Shown: in pieces, positions 8,942 through 12,590 of the stretch
Layout: each line of letters starts with the position of its first letter
How positions within the stretch are numbered: the stretch's first letter is position 1
From: a virus
Virus record (IMG/VR): IMGVR_UViG_3300023220_001073
Location: 1 to 21,214 of that record
DNA length: 21,214 bases
Reading direction: 5' to 3' (one strand)
Position numbers and translations under genes: made by a program
The notes under the pieces: model-generated
What the model was told of the DNA's origin: nothing
Database searches by the model: none
What the model saw: only the letters and a program-made list of their open reading frames with translations

Positions 8942-9190
8942 ATGGAGCTAACCTCTGACCAACTAGACGGATGGAAACATCACCCCGTTACTCAGTATAT
9001 TTTAAACAGCATTGCCGAGTCAGTGGTGGAGATGCGTCGTGTCCCCCGGTGTCGTGATGGCCAAAGCATGGAGCAAATTGCACTCAAGTGTGCTCAAGCC
9101 GAAGGCTTGATAGAGGGCGCGCTGCAAATTCAATTATGGCTCGACAATCTCGAGTTTCAAAAAAAACAATCTGAGGAAGGCAATGGATAA
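8942..9190 (+). CDS. small conserved-looking head-region protein
   Basis: This 82-residue protein begins at the base after the portal stop, with AAGGAG (8931-8936) five bases before. It is helical and polar, with two cysteines, and ends in a charged tail (EFQKKQSEEGNG) that overlaps the co-chaperonin start. No family is recognised. Position between portal and co-chaperonin suggests a head-assembly accessory. Confidence 0.7.
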   Translation: MELTSDQLDGWKHHPVTQYILNSIAESVVEMRRVPRCRDGQSMEQIALKCAQAEGLIEGALQIQLWLDNLEFQKKQSEEGNG

Positions 9191-9512
9191 CAATCCGATA
9201 AAAAAAGTCTGTGGCCATTATGTGTTGGTCAAAAAGGAACACATTGAAGAAAAAACCGCTGGCGGCATTGTGCTGCCCTCTCAAACCATCAGCAATGAAC
9301 GCGCCAGACAATGCGTTGCAACGGTGGTTGAATTTGGTCCTAAAGCGTTTCATGGTTATGTCGAGGGCACCGAATGCCATGGCCCAGAAGATTGGGGGGT
9401 CCAGGTGGGCGATAAAATTGAATTCTGTCGCTCCTATGGCCAAACCCCCTTAAGCGATGAATCAGAAGAATTCCTTATTATTATTGACAAAGATATTATG
9501 GTGGTGGTATGA
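9183..9512 (+). CDS. phage GroES-like co-chaperonin
   Basis: This 109-residue protein starts at the ATG at 9183, inside the end of the previous gene. It is a clear Cpn10/GroES homologue: YVLVKKEHIEEKTAGGIVL (residues 13-31) matches the first strand and mobile loop, with the hydrophobic I29-V30-L31 tripeptide that docks on GroEL. VQVGDKIEF (73-81) matches the core strand, and the C-terminal strand is DKDIMVVV. A Gly/His/Cys-containing insert (about 52-72) replaces the usual roof loop, and cysteines occur at 10, 44, 65 and 82. It should cap host GroEL to fold the coat protein, like T4 gp31. It lies between portal and scaffold. Confidence 0.9.
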   Translation: MDNNPIKKVCGHYVLVKKEHIEEKTAGGIVLPSQTISNERARQCVATVVEFGPKAFHGYVEGTECHGPEDWGVQVGDKIEFCRSYGQTPLSDESEEFLIIIDKDIMVVV

Positions 9513-10363: not shown

Positions 10364-10816
10364 ATGACAAACAATCCCTCTTCAGACACTAAGCCCTCCT
10401 CGACACCGACGGACAAAAAAGGACCCGGCAGACCAAAAACCAATAAGGAGGCCTTTGTCGAACGCGAATATATTCGGCCCGCCAAGCGAATTCCGGCTAC
10501 CCGGCAGGATAAAACGCGCTTTCCTGATGGCATAGAGCAGCTGCCCGATAAGCGCTATTGCTGGGTGCTAGAGCAAGACATTCAAGATAAAATCAATGCC
10601 TGGTACGAGTTCGTCAAAGATAAAAACGGCACGCGAGTGCGTATGGTGGCCAATAAAAGTGTCGATATGACTGCCTTAAACCGTATGCAGTATCTGATGA
10701 TGGTGGATGAAAGCCATTACTTGGAGGATTTCGCCCTGCAACAGGATAAATGCATCGATTTAAAAAGAAAAAAAGAAACGCTGGGCGCTGGACAATATCG
10801 ACCCCGCTCCCTTTAA
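10364..10816 (+). CDS. unknown protein with an AT-hook-like motif
   Basis: This 150-residue protein starts at the ATG at 10364 after an AAGGA. The first 20 residues are Ser/Thr/Pro-rich, followed by KKGPGRPKTN (residues 19-28), whose GRPK core resembles an AT-hook minor-groove-binding motif. The rest is basic and helical with no recognised domain, ending KETLGAGQYRPRSL. It lies between scaffold and the capsid leader. DNA binding within the head is one guess; a structural linker is another. Confidence 0.65.
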   Translation: MTNNPSSDTKPSSTPTDKKGPGRPKTNKEAFVEREYIRPAKRIPATRQDKTRFPDGIEQLPDKRYCWVLEQDIQDKINAWYEFVKDKNGTRVRMVANKSVDMTALNRMQYLMMVDESHYLEDFALQQDKCIDLKRKKETLGAGQYRPRSL

Positions 10817-11103
10817 ATTTGTTTTTAAAAAAAATGCTTGACGCATTGTATAACATAAGGTAACTTATCGACAATAGTATTGTTGTATCGTGAGTAATAA
10901 GTGTGGCGTATTAATAAATACTCCTCCTTTCTCACCAACCGGCAGCTAGCACACTGGGAGAAGTGTCCCAGTTCAGCAAGCTATCTGTCGTTGTGATGGT
11001 CACATAACCATGTAACCATCCCAAATCAGGCCCCTAAAGTGGCAAACACTTTTGACTGATTTGTTAGGTTTATTTTTCTAACAATCAGTGTAGGAGTGTT
11101 CCC
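10817..11103 (+). promoter_or_regulatory. structured untranslated leader of the capsid genes
   Basis: These 287 bases carry no gene that I can support. They hold a 13-base palindrome, ACAATA-G-TATTGT (10871-10883), then four hairpins in a row: 10944-10982 (outer 7-bp stem with one mismatch, inner perfect 7-bp stem), 10995-11020 (GATGGT/ACCATC plus CAT/ATG), 11036-11052 (AAAGTG/CACTTT) and 11055-11089 (12 bp with one bulged T and a 10-base loop). The last ends two bases before AGGAG (11092-11096), the ribosome site of the next gene. TGTGA/TCACA (10992-11004) is an alternative pairing that excludes the second hairpin. It may stabilise or regulate capsid mRNA. Confidence 0.6.
10838..10866 (+). 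promoter_or_regulatory. weak candidate promoter before the capsid genes
   Basis: TTGACG (10838-10843, 5 of 6) is followed after 17 bases by TAACTT (10861-10866, only 3 of 6). It precedes the capsid leader. It would explain extra transcription of coat genes but is weak, and the late promoter may suffice. Confidence 0.25.
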
Positions 11104-11655
11104 ATGACTGGAGGCTTTAAACCCGTCCAAGACATTTCTGGCAACCCGTATACCGGCAAAGTCAGAACATATGCCGTTGCAGCATCCCATGCAACCTTAC
11201 TCGCACCCGGTGATTTCGTGGTTGAAATCGGCGATGCGGATTCCACGACCGGCAAATCGCAAGTCGATGCCATCTCATCTGGCACCGGCAATCTTACGTT
11301 AGGTGCGATTGTTTCGGTCGATCCTAATATTTCCAACTTAGAACAGCGCGGCTTACCCGCCACTATTGGCGGAACGGTTAAGGTTTCTATCGATCCCGAT
11401 ACGCTGTATGAAGGCATCTTAAGTAATGGCTCAATTGCCACCACTAATGTGGGGCAAAATGCCGCCGTTGCTGCGACCGCCGCGACTCAAACAGGCTCTC
11501 TTGTTGATTCCAATATGACCATTAATGCAGGCACCTTTACCGGCTCTACTGAGCAGGTTCGCGTCGTCGGTCTTAAAGATGGTGTGGTTGGAGCAGCGGG
11601 CACGGTTTTTGTGCGCCTCAATGAGTCCAGTATTAAATCTACAACAGGAGTGTAA
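11104..11655 (+). CDS. capsid decoration-like structural protein
   Basis: This 183-residue protein starts at the ATG at 11104 behind AGGAG. It is rich in Gly, Thr, Val and Ser, with a predicted beta fold and no charged clusters. A segment VKVSIDPDTLYEGI (about residues 93-106) resembles the DPDxLFE segment common in small proteins next to coat proteins. It precedes the coat gene by two bases of spacing and is probably made in large amount. Decoration or head-assembly role is inferred from context. Confidence 0.6.
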   Translation: MTGGFKPVQDISGNPYTGKVRTYAVAASHATLLAPGDFVVEIGDADSTTGKSQVDAISSGTGNLTLGAIVSVDPNISNLEQRGLPATIGGTVKVSIDPDTLYEGILSNGSIATTNVGQNAAVAATAATQTGSLVDSNMTINAGTFTGSTEQVRVVGLKDGVVGAAGTVFVRLNESSIKSTTGV

Positions 11656-11657
11656 TC

Positions 11658-12590
11658 ATGGCTGCAGGAGGCGTAATTACCCGCGGTAATAATCCGCGAT
11701 TATTAAGAGAAGACGTTAATGCTATTTTCAGTGATGCATATAACGAACATCCACAACAATTTTCTAAAATCTATGGTGCGCCACACATGGCATCCCATTC
11801 ATTTGAAGTCGACGTGCAATGGGGCAGTTTTGGTCCCGCACCGATAAAAGATGAATCCGATGGCGTGGTTAACGATTCACAACAACAAGGCATTACCCCT
11901 AAATATCCGATTGATACTTTTGCGCTCGCCTATCAGGTCAGTGAAGAAAACATGGAAGATAATAAATGGGGTTTATTTTCAGATGGTGCGCGTAAATTGG
12001 CTTTTTCATTACGTCAATCGTCTGAAATTGAAGGCGCTAATGTATTAAATCGTGCCTTTAATTCTGCTTTTGTGATGCAAGATGGCGATGGTAAATCTTT
12101 ATTGGCCACCGACCACCGCAGAGGACCGGATGATAACACCTCGGTTTCTAATAAACTGGCGATTGCTGCCTCTTTATCAGAAGCCAGCCTGGAAAGACTA
12201 TTAATTCAAGTCCAAGAATTAAAAGATACCCGCGGCAACCCGGTTGCTGCGACGGCAACGCGCATGATTGCCCCCCCTGCTTTATCTTTTGAAGCGCAAC
12301 GTATTACCGCTTCGGTATTACAAAGTGGCACTGCTAATAATGACTTAAATGCCATTCGCAGTATGGGCATGTTGCCCGAAGGCTTTTTTGTCAACAACTA
12401 TCTGACATCTGACACCGCTTGGTTTTTGATGACCGATGTTGATGATGGTTTAAAGCATATGTTAAGACGCGGCGTTAAATTCCAAGAAGATAATGATTTT
12501 GGCACCTCTAATATGCGCTTCAAAGCATCACAGCGTGAAACCTTTGGTTGGTCTGATTTCCGCGGTGTATTCGGCACAGAAGGCGCATAA
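11658..12590 (+). CDS. major capsid protein
   Basis: This 310-residue protein starts at the ATG at 11658 behind an AGGAG. Its size and layout fit an HK97-fold coat of the Mu gpT-like group: an N-terminal ITRGNNPRLLREDVNAIF helix, a central LSEASLERLLIQVQELKDTRG spine-like helix, and a C-terminal DDGLKHMLRRGVKFQEDNDF with MRFKASQRETFGWSDFRGVF. The strong terminator directly after it and the structured leader before it mark it as the high-expression head gene. Confidence 0.85.
   Translation: MAAGGVITRGNNPRLLREDVNAIFSDAYNEHPQQFSKIYGAPHMASHSFEVDVQWGSFGPAPIKDESDGVVNDSQQQGITPKYPIDTFALAYQVSEENMEDNKWGLFSDGARKLAFSLRQSSEIEGANVLNRAFNSAFVMQDGDGKSLLATDHRRGPDDNTSVSNKLAIAASLSEASLERLLIQVQELKDTRGNPVAATATRMIAPPALSFEAQRITASVLQSGTANNDLNAIRSMGMLPEGFFVNNYLTSDTAWFLMTDVDDGLKHMLRRGVKFQEDNDFGTSNMRFKASQRETFGWSDFRGVFGTEGA

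Follow-up and report, generated by a model that had tools for sequence, protein, structure and literature searches.

The intergenic leader preceding the decoration-like capsid protein gene in an IMG/VR virus record (21,214 bases, analysed in full and referred to here as the window) was found to fold beyond chance expectation, to be conserved with covariation among relatives and to contain one strand common to two mutually exclusive helices, one of which buries the Shine-Dalgarno (SD) sequence of that gene. Our preferred reading of these comparative data, held with moderate confidence, is that the leader would act in cis as a two-state RNA switch for translation of the decoration-like gene and, via the operon, probably for capsid supply.

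Protein family matches identified genes for a terminase, a portal protein, GroES and a Mu gpT-like capsid protein in the window, and a DNA search for cultured phages matching the window returned none. The leader (positions 10817-11103, + strand) separates a gene for a 150-aa product (10364-10816) from the decoration-like gene (11104-11655, +), which lies directly 3' of it and is followed in the operon by the Mu gpT-like major capsid protein gene (11658-12590, +). The order portal, GroES, scaffold-like gene, 150-aa gene homologue, decoration-like gene and capsid recurs in many capsid relatives; the phage-encoded GroES-like co-chaperonin, located at 9183-9512 between the portal and scaffold-like genes, is kept in many of them. 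The window contains no tRNA, and at its left end a Cro/C1-type HTH protein (HTH_26, E 3e-6) is encoded at 160-420 on the - strand, divergently from a small ORF without a Pfam match (432-764, +), a pair that could represent a lysogeny switch.

The 183-aa product of the decoration-like gene displayed no match to Pfam or PHROG. The PDB structures closest to its AlphaFold model (pLDDT 83.9) are small capsid chains from phages T1, FCWL1 and Sf11 (TM about 0.4-0.5; E 0.003-0.05), and the closest BFVD structures are uncharacterised phage proteins. These PDB matches of the predicted fold lend moderate support to the label 'decoration-like', which originated from an earlier sequence-only reading of this DNA, and make a function as decoration protein plausible.

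That reading had also proposed four tandem hairpins in a non-coding leader, and these were recovered: from the stop codon of the 150-aa gene up to the ATG at 11104, positions 10817-11103 carry no gene-like + strand ORF, and the leader is structured beyond its shuffles. Region 10930-11110 folds at -61.7 kcal/mol (z -4.67; 0/200 dinucleotide shuffles), while 10820-11110 yields a z of -5.43 versus dinucleotide shuffles; the structured leader is real and conserved. Hairpin 1 (10940-10990, +) possesses an inner stem at 10953-10959/10966-10972 (ACUGGGA/UCCCAGU) with the loop GAAGUG, and hairpin 2 (10995-11020, +; GAUGGUcACAU-AACC-AUGUaACCAUC) occupies the same place as a covarying hairpin of relatives. 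Hairpin 3 (11022-11063, +; CAAATCAG/CTGATTTG; -13.3 kcal/mol, z -3.5) is composed of P1 and P2. The 5' strand of P1, CAAATCAG (11022-11029, +), is the putative anti-sequestering strand and is conserved in relatives, and that of P2, AAAGTG (11036-11041, +), resembles GGAGTG of the SD region. The 3' strands of P2 (CACTTT) and P1 (CTGATTTG) together form the shared strand (11047-11063, +), which can find its partner upstream, in P1/P2, or downstream, in the SD region.

The last hairpin had been described as ending two bases before the ribosome site; instead, in the minimum-energy fold its stem (11056-11067/11078-11088) extends by AACACUUUU/AGGAGUGUU, 9-10 bp more, and pairs the SD. The resulting SD-sequestering stem, with its 5' arm at 11045-11067 (+) and its 3' arm at 11078-11100 (+), exceeds 20 bp, carries a single bulge and lies directly 5' of the gene; the SD within its 3' arm (AGGAG, 11092-11096, +) has an unpaired probability of about 0.01-0.03 (~97-99% paired). 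As this stem and the hairpin at 11022-11063 have one strand in common, the two folds are mutually exclusive, and both are kept in relatives with compensatory changes. Alternative folds had been suspected earlier on the basis of a TGTGA/TCACA pairing; that pairing is present and competing folds do exist, but the conserved alternative is the 11022-11063 hairpin. With regard to the strand that pairs the SD, CCCCAAATC itself was considered and dropped, since the folds show a different strand, CUCCGGAUU, in this position. A pyrimidine-rich stretch at 10921-10934, ACTCCTCCTTTCTC, is complementary to the SD (AGGAGT) and is a possible further partner.

In the window, the fold with the SD buried (OFF, -61.7 kcal/mol) is 7.3 kcal/mol more stable than the forced ON fold (-54.4 kcal/mol), so that equilibrium alone would leave the leader mostly off; the corresponding difference in relatives ranges from 0 to about 10 kcal/mol. 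When P1 is forced, the SD of the window is still partly paired with the 5' end of the leader. An SD unpaired probability below 0.1 was obtained for 9/20 leaders, as compared with 6% of 144 short-gap relatives, these controls not being composition-matched, and SD burial is only partial in L207-type and some other leaders.

Relatives were collected by capsid-protein searches, which were alignment-based for viral contigs. The gap before the decoration-like gene measures 6-106 nt in 147 of the 161 relatives measured, against 287 nt in the window, and an insert specific to the window phage was considered given that most relatives lack the leader. This notion was dropped, as the window's own clade (capsids about 44-60% identical) carries the leader: nearly all of its members possess a structured gap of 140-403 nt, and approximately 30 distinct IMG/VR contigs of the clade exhibit a tandem-hairpin leader in this size range. 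Four relatives (L240 and L244-L246) have short gaps.

Two groups of leaders were distinguished, group A consisting of 19 leaders besides those of the window and L247, and group B of L015, L177, L181, L184, L190, L196 and L241. In the capsid tree, group B forms one supported clade and group A, without the window, another, with the window as a long branch just outside both. Group A leaders are organized as a long hairpin 1, a hairpin 2 with a UAGANR loop, a hairpin 3 in which P1 (CAAATCA/TGATTTG) encloses P2, a GC hairpin 4 and, finally, a T-rich stretch followed by the SD. The UAGANR loop, with a G-C or A-U closing pair, is found in the second hairpin of 18/19 group A leaders, the stems of which vary; UAGANR-like loops were also recognized by eye in group B and, for several relatives, in hairpin 1. 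Hairpin 2 of the window carries AACC in place of this loop, and the window is for this reason regarded as a divergent relative rather than a typical member. Group B displays a different conserved core, close to AGTTAGAARACTGTTTAGGGT, plus a long stem of its own.

A number of individual features were observed among these leaders. L015 (1588-1617) and other group B leaders contain a strong hairpin followed by a T run approximately 40 nt before the decoration-like gene, which from its sequence may be an intrinsic terminator inside the leader. The entire leader is missing from L182 (contig 3300033141_000060), which is closely related to L181 and has an 18-nt gap; the junction in L182, AGCCAGCC|ATGGCTGG, joins an inverted repeat, and the loss is either a natural deletion or an assembly artefact. 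An extra insert in the leader of L249 (contig 3300037587_000108) matches the type I hammerhead ribozyme at 2110-2158, with a CUGAUGA/GAAAC core (RF00163; 25 bits, below the gathering threshold of 34; E 7e-4 in a 421-base search). A tentative promoter-like stretch of the window (10838-10866, +; TTGACG, 17 nt, TAACTT) is weak and was recognized by eye only, and a promoter scan of the window reported no + strand promoter in the leader. A TGGTAAAAT-like sequence occurs near the same place in some relatives and, by eye, a TGGTAAAAT-like -10 is common to several group A leaders, with no good match in the window.

Conservation of the two-way pairing was assessed by scanning each leader for the 18-nt strand with the best capacity to pair in both directions, with upstream sequence and with the 30 nt immediately preceding the start codon. 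In 16/17 other group A leaders, the strand selected was homologous to that selected in the window (CACUUUUGACUGAUUUGU); the two-way score was reached by none of 60 shuffles for the window, L243 and L208, by one each for L227 and L247 and by two for L236. Group B leaders failed the scan.

Covariation in related phages, which the sequence-only reading had named as a check, was found for all helices together, for P1/P2 alone and for the SD-blocking helix alone. It was counted as double-change cells on the 19-sequence group A alignment and compared with shuffles, in which respect the counts overstate independence, as the rows are related and are all metagenomic contigs of one clade. Taking all helices of the ON structure, 55 such cells were counted versus 22.1 +/- 3.6 after shuffling, and 9-14 when the structure was slid; P1/P2 tested alone gave 15 (6.4 +/- 1.7 shuffled). 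The OFF helix, tested as CUCCGGAUUGA with UUUAAUUUGGAG plus GUA/UAC, likewise gave 15 versus 9.5 +/- 2.0, a value attained in 3/500 shuffles, and is 90.5% paired. Compensatory changes are exemplified by L208 (CUCUUGAUU/AAUUAGGAG) and by L227, which has one base more on each side (CUCCCGAAUU/AAUUUUGGAG). No double changes were counted in group B leaders.

Membership of the window was examined independently using a covariance model, R1, built from the 19 group A leaders with the window left out. R1 matched the 21 kb of the window only once, at 10980-11106 (+), with the 3' end of the match at the start codon and a score of 26.7 bits (E 0.0023). This score is modest by itself, as a few group A loci give reverse-strand matches scoring as much as 25.3 bits; among relatives that lack the leader (627 kb), the best match reached 23.8 bits. 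The window also contains an exact 17-base motif, CCCAAATCA-N-TGATTTGT, which was absent from 100 shuffles. Across all viral contigs, the group A motif-pair pattern yielded 17 matches, 16 of which precede a decoration-like gene (6/16 known beforehand); no decoration-like gene was found after the motif in the remaining one, L264, which is apparently a chance match. The window thus resembles group A in position, model match, P1/P2 and SD-complementary strand, the UAGANR loop being the exception, and the place and strand of the R1 match agree with the exact motif in pointing to window membership. Group B leaders were not matched by R1. Rfam gave no match at gathering in the window, and 14 loci, among them the leader of the window, remained without a match up to E 1; the earlier reading had likewise assigned the layout to no named RNA family, and open-access papers yielded nothing on the element. 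The leader is confirmed as a conserved RNA without an Rfam entry, and the window belongs to its divergent members.

Translation control was among the functions originally offered for the hairpins, alongside protection of the mRNA end and a response to a ligand or coat protein, and the strand that pairs the SD points in this direction. In the proposed ON state, 11047-11063 would pair upstream with 11022-11041 to form the P1/P2 hairpin, and the SD would no longer be held. In the OFF state, the same strand, extended to 11045-11067, would pair downstream with 11078-11100, thereby burying the SD. We infer that, with the upstream hairpin transcribed first, a nascent mRNA would first adopt the ON fold and would then drift, or be forced, into OFF as the more stable fold, the balance being tipped by a phage protein or simply by time. 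A more far-reaching version, in which the leaders represent an undescribed RNA family and a structural or regulatory protein of the phage, bound to the tandem hairpins, selects the fold so that capsid synthesis is tuned to assembly, is put forward tentatively and is rather unlikely to hold in full.

Burial of the SD in the most stable fold would equally be expected of a static inhibitory helix without a two-state switch, in which the SD is hidden on read-through transcripts and a shorter transcript is needed for expression, and T4 e, soc, 49 and I-TevI do use helices that block the SD or AUG (PMC3014915). We consider this explanation unlikely, since it leaves the conservation and covariation of P1/P2, as well as hairpins 1 and 2, unexplained, and the stretch between 11067 and 11092 shows no evident promoter.

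The persistence of the UAGANR loop in group A second hairpins with varying stems, together with the similar loops noted by eye elsewhere, would also suit a protein operator, whereby multiple copies of a coat, decoration or regulatory protein of the phage bind to the tandem hairpins and block or open the SD. These loops on variable but paired stems look like protein contact points in the relatives, but the window lacks them, its own hairpin loops being GAAGUG, AACC and GCAAA, and as a separate explanation the operator appears slightly less probable still than a static helix; such binding may rather be the trigger of the switch than a rival to it. RNase III processing, with cleavage of the long stem at 11045-11100 freeing the SD, or protection of the mRNA 5' end by the hairpins, is improbable: a stem of this length with a single bulge directly before the gene speaks for it, as do the long stems also present in group B (e.g. 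L015), but RNase III does not need the sequence-specific conservation of P1 and of the UAGANR loop, and the competing helix is left unexplained. Transcription attenuation, with hairpin 4 as intrinsic terminator and the upstream hairpins deciding read-through, is very improbable, as the strong hairpins with T runs of group B (e.g. L015) and the GC hairpin with T-rich tail of group A are countered by the window itself, where a scan detected no terminator-like site on the + strand and the last hairpin is followed by GTGTAGGAG.

Tailed phages need shell proteins in hundreds of copies and in set ratios, and post-transcriptional tuning of their supply is known in few cases. A conserved switch before the decoration and capsid genes would provide a concrete RNA element for such tuning, and would supply annotation with a new RNA family as well as offering a naturally occurring SD-switch part. 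The present findings suggest that unlisted regulatory RNAs are to be found in the leaders of uncultured phages.

With respect to known systems, the two-state switch proposed here shares with translational riboswitches (anti-SD/anti-anti-SD) a single strand that serves in two exclusive helices, with the SD sequestered by one of them; it differs from them in that the leader folds look bistable without a recognized ligand core and without an Rfam match. In T4, soc encodes a capsid decoration protein. In the gene 43 and gene 32 operators of T4/RB69, a phage protein binds structured RNA, which for gene 43 includes conserved loop bases (PMC3014915). Like the leader, these operators are structured and lie at a phage SD or upstream of it, whereas the genes, loops and layout differ. 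A parallel in form is offered by the T4 e, soc, 49 and I-TevI mRNAs, in which the SD or start codon is buried in a helix, gene e being relieved through late promoters and transcripts without the 5' arm (PMC3014915). As in these tailed-phage mRNAs, the SD of the decoration-like gene is predicted to be paired in a stable RNA helix; unlike T4 e, the leader of the window possesses a conserved competing hairpin that shares the SD-blocking strand, plus further conserved hairpins upstream.
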